Positions 24,640-64,000 of a stretch of DNA of 64,000 nucleotides are shown piece by piece. Within the stretch, counting starts at the first letter, position 1, and each line of letters begins with the position of its first letter. A program made the position numbers and the translations under genes. A model generated the notes under the pieces. The model ran no database searches. It saw only the letters and a list, made by a program, of their open reading frames with translations, and was not told the DNA's origin. The stretch lies in assembly GCA_032821775.1 (NCBI GenBank), contig JAVLRN010000011.1, positions 496,001 to 560,000 of the forward strand, in the 5' to 3' direction. This DNA is from Sanguinoderma infundibulare. Taxonomy: Eukaryota; Basidiomycota; Agaricomycetes; Polyporales; Polyporaceae.

Positions 24640-25517
24640 GTCTTTGTGAACCTTTCGCAGTGTTAAAGAGACGCTTTGTGATGGTAACCGAGTACGGCTG
24701 GAGTGATATTTCATATGTCAACGCAATGTAAATATGTTTTATAGAGATGGCCATTACCTATTGGTCAATGTAGTCGACGCCGAGGCACTACGAGGTCTTT
24801 TCGACGCTTGGTGGACATGATAGGACGGCTCGCTACTAACGACTCTGTTTCCTGGGACGAAATTGAACTTGGTGGTTCGAAAAACGCCGTTTCGAGTCCT
24901 CTGAAACCTGGGCAGGCTTGTATGTCAATATATGCTATATATATGCGCAGATGTATGCGCCCTACCGCGAAGGCGTGAACAAGTCGCGTACCCGATAGCT
25001 CCTACCCTTTCAGATGGCGGTCACATCGTGAAGACATGACCACGGGTTGCGGTGGAGGGAGGTTAAGAAGTAGTAGGGCAGTACGCCCTCTCACCGAACT
25101 CCTGAAAACGGTCCACCGAATGAGCACTCGATTCCCAACTGTCGGCCCGGTTTCTGCTTGCGCCCCCACAGCGCCTGAGTCCTGGAGAAGCCTTTAGTGG
25201 TTGGATCACACCAGGGAGGACACGAAATGCAAATTAACCACCACGAGACGATTGCGCTAATAGATCGACCGTCATCTATATCCGGTATATGGTCGGCTAC
25301 GGAGACTACGATTGCGCTTTGCATGTTAGAGGATACTATATGTGTCCTCTCCATCCTGACATTTATTCCGACCGTAAGGGCACCTACCTTGAGGATTCCC
25401 GATCGGACATTGAGGCTTGAACCCGCGCTATCACGCGGAGTGTCGCCGGCTTGATCATATATATAGCAACGCCAAGGCGTACTCCATGCACGTGCCTTCT
25501 AACCGCATGCGAGAGCC
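24640..25517. other. Intergenic region before the inverted-repeat element
   Basis: No gene seen. It holds the upstream region of the minus-strand gene ending at 24413 and an AT run (TATATATATG) near 24,937. Weak similarity between the outer flanks of the element (ACGTGCC, CGCATG) suggests the inverted repeat once extended a little further out. Confidence 0.5.
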
Positions 25518-25890
25518 GTCTACACACTCACTTGCAAGTGCGCGGTATATTATACCGGGCCCACTTGCAAGTGCGCAGACACCCCCAGCCCCTCCGCCTC
25601 GTGACCCCTCCCTCCCCTGCCCGTGTTCGCCCCCCCTCCCCCTATTACCTCCCTCCGGACCTTCGTAGATAGGCTTTTGGACACCGCGCCACCGGTAGTG
25701 TGCTTGTACGGCTGTGTAAAGTAGTAGAGGGAAAATGTCAAAAATATACGCATGAGTCGTACTCGAACCAAGGGACTCACGTGTGCATTAGAAAGAAGAC
25801 TGTCAGTACCGTTCAGACATTCGACCTTGCTAAAGGGAGGGGGAGGAGGTAATAAATGCAGTCGGACGTGCAAGCGATCTCCGCGCGCCC
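25518..25890 (+). repeat. Left inverted arm of element 1
   Basis: 373 bp. From outside in: terminal decamer, palindrome, hairpin, palindrome, a C-rich tract, a tRNA-like stretch at about 25752-25828 (read on the minus strand), and a polypurine stretch. Pairs with 26294-26695. Confidence 0.85.
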
Positions 25891-26025
25891 GCGTTGATGC
25901 AAGTGTCCCCCTCGCGCCCGCGCTGATGCAAGTGTCCCCCCGCCGCCCGCGCTGATGCAAGTCACTGCGCCCTGATGCAAGTGTCCCCCGTGCGCCCGCG
26001 CTGATGCAAGTGTCCTCGCGCGAAG
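25891..26025. repeat. Five direct repeats of TGATGCAAGT in the element centre
   Basis: Five copies of a unit built around TGATGCAAGT (four continue as GTCC, one as CACT) separated by GC-rich spacers (CGCCCGCGC-like). TGCAAGT is also the right half of the terminal palindrome ACTTGCAAGT, so these could be internal half-sites for the same binding protein. That link is inference. Confidence 0.75.
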
Positions 26026-26293
26026 CCATCCGCGATGTCGAGCTCGAGCTCGCAGCACCCCCATCAGCACGCGTACAGGATGCCCTTGGCCTTCTTGGAA
26101 AACGGCGAGCGAGACGACGTGAACGAGCGGTGCCCCAAGTCGACGACGCTTCCAATCGGCTTCGGCGAGGGTGAGGTCGACGGAAGAAAACGAGAAGTTC
26201 GACAGATGCGTCTTGCACAGGGCGAATGTCAAGCATGGGGGGTGAACCCGGCGAGGAGCGACCTTGGGTACTCAATGACCGTGAGTCGGACAG

Positions 26294-26695
26294 GGGCGCG
26301 CGGGGATCGTTTGCACGTCTTACTGAATTTATTACCTCCTCCCCCTCCCTTTAGCAAGGTCGAATGTCTGAACGGTACTGACAGTCTTCTTTCTAATGCA
26401 CACGTGAGTCCCTTGGTTCGAGTACGACTCATGCGTATATTTTTGACATTTTCCCTCTACTACTTTACACAGCCGTACAAGCACGCTACCGGTGGCGCGG
26501 TGTCCAAAAGCCTATCTACGAAGGTCCGGAGGGAGGTAATAGGGGGAGGGGGGGTGAACACGGGCAGGGGAGGGAGGGGTCACGAGGCGGAGGGGCTGGG
26601 GGTGTCTGCGCACTTGCAAGTGGGGCAGGCGTCTCCGCACACTTGCAAGTGGGCCCGGTATAATATACCGCGCACTTGCAAGTGGGTGTGTAGAC
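26294..26695 (-). repeat. Right inverted arm of element 1
   Basis: 402 bp, the reverse complement of the left arm apart from scattered differences and a 29-bp extra segment near 26,612-26,640 carrying an additional ACTTGCAAGT copy. Confidence 0.85.
26358..26445 (+). other. tRNA-like pol III module in the element arm
   Basis: The right arm in this direction (and the left arm on the minus strand) contains a stretch resembling a decayed tRNA-Arg(TCT): CTTTCTAAT as a possible anticodon loop, CCTTGGTTCGAGTAC as a B-box-like sequence, then ATTTTTG as a possible pol III stop. Acceptor and T stems do not pair properly, so it cannot be a working tRNA. It may be an internal promoter or a SINE-like relic. 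Confidence 0.35.
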
Positions 26696-27125
26696 TCTAC
26701 CATGCGATGCGGCACGTTCCTGCATCATTAATTAATGATACTGGCAATGCGTGAAACATGAACGAAACTCACTGTCTGAAAAATGGCAAGGCGTCGCTGG
26801 TCGGACGGTTCACCCTCCGATGTCTGCGTCCAGCCTGACGGCCGCATACTGCCAAGCGTAATATCCATTAAGATAACGCTCCGGTTGGAGAATCTATAAT
26901 GCATCGATATCGCCTTCAGGATACAGACGCAGGCCACAGGGCATAAAGCCCGTCCGGAGAAGTCACTCGGATGCAATGCAGACGCCGACATGGATCTCCG
27001 CAACGAAAAAGGCCCCCAGTGCATGCACACGCGCGCAGGTCTGCGCCTGGATACATAGAGCGGGAACCCCGTTTACCATTCATATATCAACAAGCACTCG
27101 TAACTCACAACTCCCGAAAGCCACC
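26696..27125. other. Intergenic region with a 16-bp palindrome
   Basis: No gene seen. A perfect palindrome ATCATTAATTAATGAT lies at 26724-26739, just outside the right end of element 1. The rest is the upstream region of the gene at 27126. Confidence 0.6.
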
Positions 27126-28766: not shown

Positions 28767-28915
28767 GATGGACAGCTCAATCTTTGTCACACCTGGATTG
28801 TTTGTTTGCGTTATTTTGTGGACCACATTTGGGAGTACGTGGAGAACGACTGCCGAATGTTCCCGCCTCCAGCTTGGACGGACATTTAGAGCAAAAACGG
28901 CGCAAACTTTCGTAG

Positions 28916-28988
28916 TTCCCATTAGCCGACTCGAACGACTGACCTCGTCATTACTAGTGACGCGCTCTACCAACTGAGCTAAACGGGA
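28916..28988 (-). tRNA. tRNA-Thr (anticodon AGT)
   Basis: Full 73-nt cloverleaf on the minus strand without intron. Acceptor TCCCGTT pairs with AATGGGA; D stem GCTC/GAGC; anticodon stem CGTCA/TGACG around CTAGTAA (anticodon AGT, threonine); T arm AGTCG-TTCGAGT-CGGCT. A T5 run about 20 bp downstream (28897-28893) is a pol III stop. It lies between the truncated exon copy and MED22. Confidence 0.95.
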
Positions 28989-59470: not shown

Positions 59471-59929
59471 AGCCTTGAAGACTTGAAGTTGACGAGCGTT
59501 CGCGACATAATGGTTATTTCATGAAGATGCCTGGCGCTGTTCAGAGGAAGGATTTTGGAGTAACTTATTTCAAGTTGGCAGACATTGTAGACTAGATGCA
59601 TCCGAAGATCCGTTTCACGTTGATGTTTGCGGGTGCGGCGTGCGTGCGATCGACGAGGACGGCCTGAAGATATTTGAAGACTCTGAGTCAAATGACAGAG
59701 GAGTGGATGAAGAGATATTGATCAGTACCATATGGTTTGCCATTTCAGAACCTCGACCGTGTCGTTGCGCTGAAAGCACTTCCGTCAGCCCCGAGTCGGC
59801 ACATACGATGCTAGGTAGACAACAGCAAGTAACTCATGCTGACAAGACACTGAGGGGGCGGATGGTGGATGTAGCCTTGACGCAACAACCATGATACCGA
59901 ACACATTACGCGGAGCCGTATACAACGAC
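59471..59929. other. 3' flank of the secreted protein
   Basis: Begins with three CTTGAAG-type units directly after the stop codon (59,467-59,490). No gene seen. Confidence 0.5.
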
Positions 59930-60208
59930 ACTTGCAAGTTCGACGCCTATTAGGCGTCCCCCACTTGCAAGTGCCGGGCATAGGCGCCGTAGAACACAGC
60001 CACATTCTCACGAATGGCGCCCAGAAAATCAACCTAAAATAAAGCACGAGCCGGGTTCGAACCCCGGCCCCAACAGAATGAGCCAGGCGCTTTAACACCT
60101 AAGCTAAGTGCGCCGTGATTCCTGAGGTTATTCAAGACTCATATACCTTTTCAGCCAGCCCCTGGCCCAATCTGTCCCGCATACTTGCAAGTTGAGCAAC
60201 TTGCAAGT
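59930..60208. mobile_element. Element with paired ACTTGCAAGT palindromes (element 2)
   Basis: 279 bp bounded by two palindrome copies at each side: 59930-59939 and 59963-59972 on the left, 60183-60192 and 60199-60208 on the right. Between the left pair lies GACGCCTA-T-TAGGCGTC (59942-59958). The left pair has the same 33-bp spacing and the same hairpin centre as element 1 at 25.5 kb, although the sequence between is different. The interior carries a tRNA-like sequence. No coding capacity. Calling it mobile is inference from the recurrence. Confidence 0.6.
60036..60115 (-). other. tRNA-like sequence inside element 2 (pol III A and B boxes)
   Basis: On the minus strand, GCGCACT is followed by TAGCTTAGGTG (A-box), a 4-bp D stem GCTT/AAGC, a CTCATTC loop-like stretch, GGGGTTCGAACCC (B-box) and then TTTATTTT, a possible pol III stop. 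The acceptor pairs for only four bases and the T stem is shifted by one base, so it is not a functional tRNA. On the plus strand the same segment has a perfect T arm (CCGGG-TTCGAAC-CCCGG) but no partner 5' half. Confidence 0.5.
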
Positions 60209-60280
60209 CTCCCCCATCAGTCCCCTTCGAACGCGCGCCTCCCATCCGCCTATCCCCCTAGGTGCTCTCCCCCGCCTGCC

Positions 60281-60432
60281 ATCTACACCGCCCGCCGCTG
60301 TCTATCTGTCTCGTCCCGCCGCCTGGCGTCTATCCCGCCGTCTGCCGTCTATCCCCCTCATCTACACCGCCCGCCGCTGTCTGTCTCATCCCGCCGCCTG
60401 GCGTCTATCCCGCCATCTGCCGTCTATCCCCC
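60281..60432. repeat. Two tandem copies of a ~75-bp pyrimidine-rich unit
   Basis: Units 60281-60359 and 60360-60432 share ATCTACACCGCCCGCCGCTG, then CCCGCCGCCTGGCGTCTATC and more; they differ by a 4-8 bp indel and two substitutions. Confidence 0.85.
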
Positions 60433-60595
60433 TTCTCCTGCCACACACCATCAACCGCTCTTCTCCCTCCTCCTCGCTCTCGCCATGAAGCCCCGACATC
60501 CGCGCGTCGCATCTGCCAACGTCACTGTTGCCGTCGGCGACCCCATCTCAAATTAGGTGCGCCCGTTGCGTCATCCGTCTCACGTTACTGACAGT
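60433..60595. other. Short leader-like stretch
   Basis: CT-rich sequence leads to an ATG at 60485 (MKPRHPRVASANVTVAVGDP, then a stop three codons later). It looks like a 5' UTR and first exon, possibly joined by a GTGCGC donor at about 60,557, but no second exon could be identified. Confidence 0.25.
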
Positions 60596-60631
60596 CCGAA
60601 TCTGATGCGCCGAACGGCGCATCAGATTCGG
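60596..60631. repeat. 36-bp perfect palindrome
   Basis: Arms CCGAATCTGATGCGCCG and its exact complement are separated by AA only, giving a 17-bp stem. It is the strongest hairpin in the window. Confidence 0.92.
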
Positions 60632-60652
60632 GAACGTTCGTGAATCCGTGAG

Positions 60653-60803
60653 TATCCCATTATCCCAGACAATGATCTGGATGATGGGATAATCATCGGT
60701 CCAGACCGGTCGCTCGGCCGCGCGATTGGATCTGGGCGCCTAAATGGCATCGGGCCAGATCGAGCATGTGATACGCCACATCGATCATGTGATACGCCAC
60801 ATC
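60653..60803. repeat. Second inverted repeat and tandem 21-bp repeats
   Basis: An imperfect inverted repeat (TATCCCAT/ATGGGATA with inner CCAGA/TCTGG) lies at 60653-60691. An 18-bp direct repeat CATGTGATACGCCACATC lies at 60765-60782 and 60786-60803 (21-bp period). Together with the 36-bp palindrome they form a 200-bp repeat cluster. Confidence 0.85.
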
Positions 60804-60959
60804 TCTCGCGTCACACCGCGCTCGATTAGCACTTCCGATCCGCACCCCACCGACAAATTCTTCAAACACCACGTCCTCGACATCGCGCTTCAACGGCATA
60901 GCTCGGTCTGTGTGGGGTTATCTCCCTGCACAGGCTTTCTCTAAGTGCAGGATCTTCTC

Positions 60960-61475
60960 AGCTTCTCTTGCGTTAAACCGATTCACACCGTATACTTCGT
61001 CCTCGGAGGAGGAGCACGACCAACACCGTCCGAGGATACCAACGAGCGTCGCAAGGTTATCCAGAACAAGATCCTTGCTGTTGGTCGTATCTCCAGGCCT
61101 TTCGCGCTGTTGCGGTATGTGCTGCTGCTGCATTCGGATTATTATCGTCTTCTAAGTGAGGAGTCCGAGAAGGCTCCCCTACGGTACTCTTGCTCTAGGG
61201 GTGGAGTGTATGAAGGAGGCTATCTCTGGCTTCGAAGACGCGTATGTCATACCAGAGCTTTTCTTTGTTCCATATCTGATGAACTATCGCAGCCGGACCC
61301 CGAGCCCGAAGAGGGCAAGTGCCTCATCACCTCCCAACCAACAACGCCCTCAGAAGACGTGCGGAACGTCATCGTCGGGGACGACGGAAGGCTGTGCCTC
61401 CTTGACTGGGCCTGGGCGGGGTTCCATCCAGAGTGGTTTGAGTACGCGGTCTTGATGCCCCGGTGGAAGCTTTCG
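60960..61475 (+). pseudogene. APH-like kinase fragment
   Basis: The 3' half reads DVRNVIVGDDGRLCLLDWAWAGFHPEWFEYAVLMPRW, the metal-binding C-lobe segment of the basidiomycete aminoglycoside-phosphotransferase-like family. The catalytic loop expected just before (H-G-D-x-x-x-x-N) is degraded to SEDVRN, and the N-lobe cannot be traced. After RW the frame runs on into sequence antisense to the F-box-like fragment, so the gene's own end is missing. Upstream exons are unclear. It is related to, but distinct from, the intact kinase at 22602-23635. Confidence 0.5.
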
Positions 61476-61476
61476 C

Positions 61477-62120
61477 TCACAGACGGTGCCGGTTCCGCAG
61501 CTCATGCGTCTCCTGCGCAAGCAGCACGCTCACGCTCCCGCTATCCATCTTCGTTCCGCTCGCCCGGTCCAGTGCCATCCCGCTCACCAGCGCCGGATCC
61601 ATCATCCCCAGGCTCCCCTGGTCGTCCTGCGGCACACCGTCGTCCGAAGGGATGTCTCGCACGAGGATTTTGGTCGCGATCCGCTGCCCGTGGTCGCCCG
61701 CCAGCGAGCGCGTCGCCGCGTCCGTGGACGCGTCCAGCCAGAGCGCGGTCCCGTACGGCGAGAGGACCATGTCCGAGGGCGTGAACATGCGCAGGGGCGA
61801 TGGGTTCGCATGCGCCATCACAGGCCCATCTGCGCTCTGTGGGGAGGTGAGGTAGGGGAACGTTTCTGAGGAGGTGGGGGACAAAGTGAAGGGGGAGAAG
61901 GACAGGTTGGGAGCAAGGACAAAGTGGTGGAGGATGTTGACAGGCCAGGGGAACAGGGTGTCGAAGCGGAGGAGGTCGATCACGGGCGGGGCATGGTAAG
62001 TGTGCGGGTGTTGGCGGCGGGGGTTGATGGAGATGCTGTCGATGCGCCAGCGCCATCTGTATTGCGCGATGGGCTCGAGAGTCTGCGCCGATGGGATGTT
62101 GAGCTGGCCGTTGTGTAGCG
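61477..62120 (-). pseudogene. F-box-like protein fragment (C-terminal region)
   Basis: Exon 62120-61477 after a TTTCTACAG acceptor reads ALHNGQLNIPSAQTLEPIAQ, then PVNILHHFVLAPN, FTPSDMVLSPYGTALWLDAS and DPALVSGMALDRA, a pattern I associate with the C-terminal part of basidiomycete F-box proteins. The usual end (an ED...GRIALG-type strand) is missing: after SVSVLL the sequence departs and stops. Upstream, 62,125-62,237 is open (SASSDRESRRFAFECCDLVQ) but would need an unusually short ~32-bp intron. No F-box was found further up. Partial or broken gene. Confidence 0.4.
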
Positions 62121-62239
62121 CTGTAGAAAGCGAGCGATCCTAGTGGGTCCACCTCGCGCCTGGATCTGGACGAGATCGCAACACTCGAACGCGAACCTGC
62201 GGCTTTCGCGGTCGGATGACGCCGAGTAGAGGGTCAATG

Positions 62240-63480
62240 TAAGTAGGTAACGGCCACCATGCCAAGGGAGAAATTCGACGGCCAGGGTACGATGACTGAG
62301 GAGGGACGACCAAGGTCTGGCGGTGGGGCGGATGTCGAGGCGGGAGTATGGTTGCGGCTCGGGATTTCAATACCTGCTCATTTGAACAGTCAAACGTTCT
62401 AGCTCAGTGGCAGATAGCGAAGAGATATCGCAGTGTTTTGCACCAGGGACGGGCATTCCCTTCTGGAGGAAACGTGTAGATAAGGCTTCGTGCCAGACGC
62501 TGCGACTCCTCGTAAGGTTTTCGAAAACTGTACATGTCTGAGACGCGTCCGACGCATGAGGGGAGTGTCCAAGGGGGAGGATGTTAGACAAGGGGGAGGG
62601 ACGAAGGACGGCTCATGCACAGGCCGGGGTGAGGCGATGGAGGAAGGGGGCAAGACTTTGATGCCATACCCTCGGGTAGAATCACGTACCTGCCACGGCT
62701 ATAATATCCGATAGTACATGCTCGGGGGCTGAATATACACTATGGACAACATGGTTGGATTCGAGACTCAGAAGATGGCGCGTGAAAGCACAGACGCGAG
62801 TAGCATGGCCATAGCCCGCGATACAGCCCAAAGAGGGCATTCGTTCGGGACGACCACGTCAGAAAGACGACGCTGAAAGCTGGCGCACCGTGTCCCGGGC
62901 AGTAATACACGAACGTCAGCGTATTGGAGCCGTTGGCGGGGTGTGAGATGGCCATCCGGGCCTCGATAGCGGGCCAAGTGGTCTCCACTGGTCGTTCCAA
63001 GGGTGGGGGGAGGTGGGCAAGGGTTGACGAGCAAGACTGACTGACCGAAACTTCGTGTATGCGTCTACAATACGCTTGGCGAAGCCGCTCTACTCCTCTG
63101 GCGTAACCTCGCACTCTGCCAGGCATTTCTCGCCTTCGGTTTGGGAAAGACGGAGCACGTCAAGATTGTCGTTTGGGCTCGGAAGCTCAAGCAGGTTTCG
63201 GTATACGGTTAAGCGGAGTCTGGAACGTCGAGGAATCGCGTTGAAGCGATTCGACAGTCTGGCAAAGTAAGCTTAAGCTACAGGCCTATACAGTGCATCT
63301 TGTAGCAAAGTTTCCGCACATCCGGCATTTTGTGGTGGTCTGGTCGGGAGAAGTAAGGTCTGCACTCGTCGAACTCTAATCCTGCTGTCTATCGTCTCGG
63401 CGACCAACTTCAACCCACACCAACACTTTCCCCACACTCTTCTGCTGGTACCGCGTCCATCCATCCTTTACAACCCCACC
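62240..63480. other. Region without a supported gene
   Basis: May contain upstream exons of the F-box-like fragment (minus strand), but I could not assemble any. The last ~100 bases are the promoter and leader of the gene at 63481. Confidence 0.45.
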
Positions 63481-64000
63481 ATGGTCACCAGTGTCCGGTG
63501 CAACAGCTTCACGCACCGGGATATCCGCTGCAAAAACAGGATTAGCACCAAGAACGCTGTTCGCTTCCCGAATGGAAAGCAACTGAAATCTCACTGTTTT
63601 CGTCACCTCAAAGCGAAACTCCGGCAGCCCACGTTCCGCTGCCTCAAATTCCGGAGTCGTTACATCCGTTACGACGGTGAGCAGTATAGTTTTTGTCCTC
63701 CCTTATACGACTCACTTGCAGGTTCAGCATACATTCGCGATTACCTCCAACCTCGCACGCAAGCCTTGCTTCGCGAGCTCATGTGCAAGCCGCCTAGTGT
63801 GTGCGATGGACCTGGTCACATCTATGCGTTCGAAGTGCCTGGTACGTTATTCGCTCCCTTCACCGCTCTCACTAACCCCCTTCAAGATCCCGACAACGAC
63901 GACTTCGTACACATCAAGGTCGGGCGTACCAATCGGCTTAACCGTCGCTTCGACGAGCATCTCAACAGATGCCCTTCCTTAAATGCGGTGCTCCTCGGCT
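63481..64000 (+). CDS. GIY-YIG nuclease-like DUF1766 (T5orf172) protein, cut by the window edge
   Basis: 5' part of a gene; exons 63481-63676, 63722-63841 and 63897 to beyond 64000, frame-keeping. The start has a perfect context (CCCACCATGG). The N-terminal part is Cys/Arg-rich (RCNSFTHRDIRCKNRIS), as in the zinc-binding preamble of this family. Then come YIRDYLQPRTQALLRELMCKPP, GHIYAFEVPDPDNDDFVHIK and VGRTNRLNRRFDEHLNRC. GHIYAFEV followed by HIKVGRTN corresponds to the GIY and YIG strands, with Arg after the second strand as the likely catalytic residue. In mushrooms this family is greatly expanded and its function is unknown; fission yeast Mug113 is a relative. The C-terminus lies outside the window. 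Confidence 0.85.
   Translation, partial: MVTSVRCNSFTHRDIRCKNRISTKNAVRFPNGKQLKSHCFRHLKAKLRQPTFRCLKFRSRYIRYDGEQYSFCPPLYDSLAGSAYIRDYLQPRTQALLRELMCKPPSVCDGPGHIYAFEVPGTLFAPFTALTNPLQDPDNDDFVHIKVGRTNRLNRRFDEHLNRCPSLNAVLLG

Follow-up and report, generated by a model that had tools for sequence, protein, structure and literature searches.

The window analysed here, a stretch of 64,000 nucleotides from contig JAVLRN010000011.1 (C11) of the polypore Sanguinoderma infundibulare, contains two palindrome pairs that enclose a hairpin, and both lie at the left end of a transposon. In element 2 the arrangement ACTTGCAAGT - GACGCCTA T TAGGCGTC - ACTTGCAAGT occupies positions 59930-59972 of the plus strand, with the self-complementary hairpin at 59942-59958. 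The corresponding arrangement of element 1, ACTTGCAAGT - GGTATA T TATACC - ACTTGCAAGT, is found at 25530-25572 of the same strand and its hairpin (25544-25556) is self-complementary as well. Read directly, the palindromes start at 59930 and 59963 and at 25530 and 25563, i.e., 33 bp apart both times, and each hairpin is centred on a T (59950 and 25550), in both cases at a distance of precisely 20 bp from where the first palindrome starts. This geometry had been described in an earlier note on the same DNA and was found again in every detail. The segment 59930-60208, there taken for a “second element”, is actually the first approximately 300 bp of a transposon of 39,727 bp.

Element 1 (25513-26700, C11:521513-522700, plus strand), delimited from its sequence, is 1,188 bp long and contains no transposase gene. 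Its inverted termini comprise 68 and 336 nt, and the target site duplication CATGCGA on its left (25506-25512) is matched exactly on its right (26701-26707). The left tip is GAGCC (25513-25517, plus strand), the right tip TCTAC (26696-26700), which reads GTAGA on the minus strand. Close to the latter a minus-strand subterminal array (26612-26683) presents ACTTGCAAGT three times (26612, 26641 and 26674) together with the hairpin GGTATAATATACC (26657-26669). Further inside, at approximately 25894-26013, there are direct repeats around GATGCAAGTGTCCCCC in which one half of ACTTGCAAGT recurs in a different context. Between the two elements an ordinary tRNA-Thr gene (anticodon AGT) is located on the minus strand (28915-28988).

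Only the first 4,088 bp of element 2 (59913-64000, plus strand) are contained in the window. It begins with the tip GAGCC (59913-59917, plus strand), preceded by TTACGCG (59906-59912), and possesses an inner subterminal pair of ACTTGCAAGT (60183-60208, plus strand) whose members are 16 bp apart and enclose no third palindrome. Downstream of 59913 no right end for it was found within the window. The nearest correctly oriented one is located at C11:595613-595639, 35.6 kb past the window, and is followed by the very same TTACGCG, which means that element 2 extends over 39,727 bp (C11:555913-595639). Its tips are asymmetric (GAGCC...TCTAC) and its inverted repeats are 94 bp long and 91% identical. 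A second giant copy of 39,728 bp was detected at C2:40810-80537 with a different duplication, CGCAAAG. Over the 13.3 of 39.7 kb that were compared in three separate stretches both giants are 99-100% identical (first 4.2 kb 99.7%, middle 3.5 kb 99%, last 5.6 kb 100% after rounding, last 3.2 kb 99.5%), and a 3.5-kb piece of the giant matched both of them and no other place when searched in the genome. That the same structure occurs at two loci strongly argues against two tips having been matched by coincidence.

The palindrome is strongly enriched. With at most one mismatch, 11 matches to ACTTGCAAGT are found in the window while 1.17 are expected, and genome-wide 349 sites stand against 64 for the pattern read backwards. 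Pairs at a distance of 20-40 bp number 84 versus none backwards, those at 41-70 bp 14 versus none, and the listed examples of the wider pairs span arrays of three sites. Among the 50 of 84 closer pairs that were listed a spacing of 33 bp dominates (34 pairs), followed by 29 bp (6), 34 bp (4) and 26 bp (3), with one pair each at 28, 32 and 36 bp.

The inverted repeats of the copies begin 12 bp outside the first palindrome, and beyond them follow five more, asymmetric bases, GAGCC at one end and GTAGA at the other. Searching for these tips in combination with GTNTACA and ACTTGCAAGT (two mismatches allowed) revealed 91 left (46 + 45) and 89 right ends (45 + 44) in the genome, and reversed patterns used as controls gave none. 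Pairing of left and right ends by orientation within 60 kb yielded 70 pairs, one of which (34,803 bp on C8, using a right end twice) was dropped, so that 69 pairs are considered here; 22 left and 20 right ends stayed unpaired. Twenty-five of the 69 pairs were tested for target site duplications: 24 show an exact 7-bp duplication and the remaining one has a single mismatch. Mispaired flanks agreed within one mismatch in none of 600 cases. These tip pairs with their 7-bp duplications are insertions of a DNA transposon group. One unpaired left end (L055, C9:2483009) is flanked by ATCTATG, as is an unpaired right end on C18 (L060, C18:361781), which looks as though the halves of one insertion had been swapped when copies rearranged with each other. 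The left end at C9:2483009 was also inspected as a candidate giant on account of a KDZ gene found 9.5 kb downstream of it. This gene, however, is only 35-37% like those of the giants; no right end within two mismatches follows this gene on C9 and the candidate was not counted.

Within the group the families A, B1 and B2 have tips, duplication length and ACTTGCAAGT in common but differ in their hairpin arms. Family A includes, besides the giant, four short copies of 1.9-6.4 kb. Only their outer 0.3-0.45 kb are common with the giant, with 81-87% identity over this part, which fits derivatives that kept the ends while the interior was replaced. The copy of 6.4 kb has the left-end sequence of the giant at both its ends. 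Element 1 is a short copy (family B1) of a family that may be sister to the one of element 2, a relationship of A and B that the proteins do not show; at the sensitivity that detected the short copies of family A no match between element 1 and the giant was found.

Profile searches of the whole genome gave 87 KDZ matches, with more than one in the same gene in some cases, and 48 CxC2 matches. All four tip pairs of 21-40 kb, namely those on C11, C2, C6 (21,099 bp) and C10 (38,446 bp), contain both CxC2 and KDZ matches and are flanked by exact 7-bp duplications. These four giants come from three families. In the KDZ domain the C11 and C2 copies are 99% and the C6 and C10 copies 86% identical, and between these two groups identity amounts to 56%, compared with 17-37% for five other KDZ genes chosen among the 87 matches. 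A TGA within the CxC2 match of the C10 copy and three stops in the first KDZ piece of the C6 copy may be introns or signs of decay. The KDZ of family A is 85% like a protein from Dichomitus and that of B2 85% like one from Ganoderma, with A and B at 56%. Judged from these similarities, the divergence of the A and B lines likely predates that of the two genera; each of these proteins resembles its own line more than the two lines resemble each other, so that a sister relationship of A and B is not shown. Read as spliced, the transposase has matches among the CxC2-KDZ proteins of Dichomitus and Ganoderma (best 71% at a query coverage of 66%, and 48% at 99%), from which a host in or near the Polyporales would be deduced. 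Among the matches listed none to KDZ falls within the five pairs of 5.3-8.9 kb, and most copies are therefore assumed to depend on a transposase supplied elsewhere. The longer copies L020, L021 and L041 were considered as transposase carriers, and none of the genomic KDZ profile matches lies inside them. Elsewhere CxC2 and KDZ matches follow each other in the same order at a distance of approximately 22 kb (C10:360304/382651, C12:78131/100104, C18:188124/210597 and C2:4721474/4743573), possibly representing a second family of giant KDZ elements with other ends.

The giant contains 163 stop-to-stop frames of at least 100 amino acids, and 20 of them were scanned against Pfam. They revealed one CxC2 (6.2e-33), one KDZ (9e-25), one T5orf172 (3.8e-07) and one GDE_C match (6.1e-36). 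The frame with T5orf172 (GIY-YIG-type; PF10544) is a passenger gene that starts in the window (63277-64000, plus strand) and continues for 290 bp past it. The GDE_C piece (glycogen debranching type; L046:753-2773) is 88-93% identical to C6:1730457-1732902, and this match with another sequence of the genome points to a gene fragment that was likely captured from the host. An additional frame of 823 amino acids gave no match in this Pfam scan. Its three best relatives, among which is one from Ganoderma sinense, show 52-53% identity to it; PF28437 is found in 12 of its 18 relatives. Neither a tyrosine recombinase captain nor a TET/JBP gene was found among the 20 of 163 frames scanned, whereas the KDZ transposase is present.

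It could be argued that the group is moved by a transposase of another kind and that the KDZ genes are mere passengers or nested inserts. Copies can indeed harbour a foreign transposon, as shown by L040, in which an AcademH-like insert (L040:117-8090, C11:331916-339889), flanked by the 11-bp repeat GCGGTTTATTA, interrupts the hairpin of a copy of 0.94 kb; besides, five copies of 5-9 kb are without KDZ among the matches listed. Nevertheless, KDZ together with CxC2 occurs in four of four giants from three families, the 20 of 163 frames of the giant that were scanned revealed no other transposase domain, and 7 bp is the duplication length published for two Kyakuja families (PMC12730594, in excerpt). 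We regard such a foreign mover as quite unlikely and the KDZ protein as the probable transposase. AcademH itself was rejected as mover because the DUF6589 and DEAD helicase domains of the 8.9-kb L040 lie in the nested insert. We take DUF6589 to be a marker of Academ elements, a link for which our literature search found nothing. Moreover, the helicase-encoding Academ elements known as AcademH have duplications of 9-10 bp (PMC10045372, in excerpt), as against 7 bp here.

The earlier note had pointed to conserved spacing combined with compensatory change in the hairpin between the palindromes, which in its view suggested selection either on a structure (cruciform or RNA stem) or on a protein reading sites about three helical turns apart. 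The rows used for this question derive from 54 distinct 75-mers at part of the 180 ends; identical 43-44-mers were merged and rows lacking a second palindrome that agrees in at least 8 of its 10 letters left out. Because the rows are related, the following counts should not be taken for independent events. At a spacing of 33 bp, 23 distinct oriented ends offer 138 arm cells, 131 of which pair around position +20 (all six pairs in 16 of the 23), compared with at most 66 of 138 around any other centre tried between +15 and +27. A central palindrome is present in other pairs among those listed, too, so that for these neither of the two outcomes named as refuting in the earlier note (33 bp no commoner than other spacings, palindromes absent elsewhere) is observed. 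When the spacing is 34 bp (six ends), 33 of 36 cells pair around +21, which means that the hairpin centre moves with the spacing. By a stricter criterion, the longest perfect stem exceeds shuffled sequences (P < 0.05) in 13 of 26 distinct 33-bp rows and in neither of the two 34-bp rows; at spacings of 26, 28, 29, 32 and 36 bp the stems are no better than shuffles in 11 of 12 rows.

The letters of the arms are characteristic of each family, namely GACGCCTA in A, GGTATA in B1, CCGGTTTA in B2 and CCAGTTTA in L041. Compensatory change is therefore supported between families but not within family A, in which the C/T and G/A changes of the arms lie at CpG and are often one-sided. In one subfamily (mostly GGTTTATTATACC) the stem is mismatched in 42 of 45 ends, so a perfect palindrome is not required. 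Both the one-sided CpG changes and these mismatched stems count against strong selection on pairing. A comparison of only three transposase families with their hairpins is no more than suggestive of co-divergence.

These data also bear on the structural readings. The 43-bp end could act as DNA structure, i.e., as an extruded cruciform or single-strand hairpin whose shape is recognised by the transposase, and indeed the whole 43-mer folds as one DNA hairpin (-17.3 kcal/mol in element 1, -15.5 kcal/mol in element 2, with 0 of 200 shuffles as good in each case) and pairing is maintained while the arm letters vary between families. However, any site bound by a dimer would look alike, the outer ACTTGCAAGT is conserved in its letters and not in pairing alone, and stems are mismatched in 42 of 45 ends of the subfamily mentioned above. 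A cruciform is not needed to account for the observations and we consider it unlikely. Even more doubtful, in fact very improbable, is a hairpin that belongs to a transcribed RNA (small RNA or terminator). The fixed position of the stem would suit such a role, but the palindrome is found at both ends in inverted orientation, as ends of DNA would show, and no Rfam match with E up to 1 was obtained in either of the two stretches searched. The inner sequence gives a tRNA-like impression based on tRNA box motifs, which neither ARAGORN nor Rfam confirmed and which was therefore discarded. Of the earlier proposal the RNA stem is thus unsupported, while selection on a protein that reads paired palindromes fits, because transposons endowed with a transposase gene have the motif in their ends and because palindrome form and spacing persist in three families.

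A palindrome is a natural target for a protein dimer. We are fairly confident that the 33-bp palindrome pair with its hairpin, situated in the inverted ends of a CxC2/KDZ-carrying transposon group, is the likely binding site of dimers of that transposase, and by analogy with piggyBac the palindromes are likely sites of a dimeric transposase. According to this proposal the KDZ protein would cut at the tips and pair both ends via ACTTGCAAGT, which occurs in all families, and via the central palindrome, which is family-specific. Sites about three helical turns apart would be presented on the same face of the DNA. The same protein would mobilise giant and short copies alike, the latter having no transposase gene of their own. 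The cysteine cluster CxC2 may be the part that reads the palindromes, as in piggyBac and piggyBat. Between A and B2 it is identical in 50 of 104 positions and has diverged about as much as the KDZ core (56%), so that CxC2 is not singled out as the reader of the sites. More tentatively, and with less than even confidence, one may think of a modular palindrome code read by KDZ transposases, consisting of a universal ACTTGCAAGT pair at a fixed distance of three helical turns and a centre whose letters vary with the transposase family, with the giants of 20-40 kb as recombinase-independent counterparts of Starships in polypores that capture and spread host genes.

Contrary to the expectation of an undescribed system, the palindromes belong to the end of a DNA transposon of a kind already known, one with a KDZ transposase. 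Members of the KDZ superfamily have a KDZ domain (PF18758), often accompanied by a CxC cluster, and a fixed target duplication of 7 or 8 bp; the four giants described here contain matches to this domain, and 7 bp are duplicated in 24 of 25 pairs tested. The group is classed as KDZ transposons whose end architecture is new. Giant members of this superfamily have been reported before, and it is the end architecture, the size and the short derivatives that look new. In the open-access literature searched we found neither a description of palindromic KDZ ends nor an explanation of end recognition by KDZ transposases.

The published duplications are 7 bp for Kyakuja and 8 bp for Zisupton and Dileera (PMC12730594, in excerpt). 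Two Kyakuja families of Laccaria resemble the present group in their KDZ transposase, the Agaricomycete host and the 7-bp duplications, but they are reported in the same excerpt to have CA..TG ends without inverted repeats and to carry a TET/JBP gene, in contrast with the GAGCC...TCTAC tips, the inverted repeats of 94 bp and the subterminal palindromes found here and with the lack of such a gene among the 20 frames scanned. Our elements agree with KDZ1-3 of Cryptococcus (PMC12810828, in excerpt) in their fungal host, in having inverted repeats and in a KDZ transposase that includes a CxC cysteine cluster. Those elements differ in length (9-11 kb versus 21-40 kb), in their inverted repeats of 139-241 bp, in the type of cluster (CxC1 versus CxC2) and in their duplications (8 bp for KDZ1 and 4-8 bp for KDZ2 and KDZ3 versus 7 bp). 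Giant size is encountered in the algae Ectocarpus (up to 30.3 kb, with additional genes in many giant families) and Chlamydomonas (31.7 kb, active), for which the consulted part of PMC12477816 describes no palindromic ends. The elements of 38-40 kb with passenger genes exceed these KDZ elements of 30-32 kb.

The arrangement of a repeated motif and a palindrome near the ends has a parallel in piggyBac and piggyBat, the subterminal palindromes of which are bound by two cysteine-rich domains, one per monomer, and are unrelated in sequence between the two transposons (PMC11707139, in excerpt). Binding by a dimer in the present case is an analogy. Both belong to another superfamily, i.e., the similarity concerns the way of working and not membership. 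With three related transposases and approximately 180 ends a single genome offers a test set in which a common outer palindrome is combined with a family-specific central one. Finally, Starships are likewise large fungal elements with passenger genes and are reported also from the basidiomycete Tremella fuciformis (PMC13066641, in excerpt), but they are defined by a tyrosine recombinase (PMC12134995 and PMC13066641, both in excerpt), whereas a KDZ transposase is found here. With the giants described here, Starships are joined by a second type of giant element in basidiomycete genomes.
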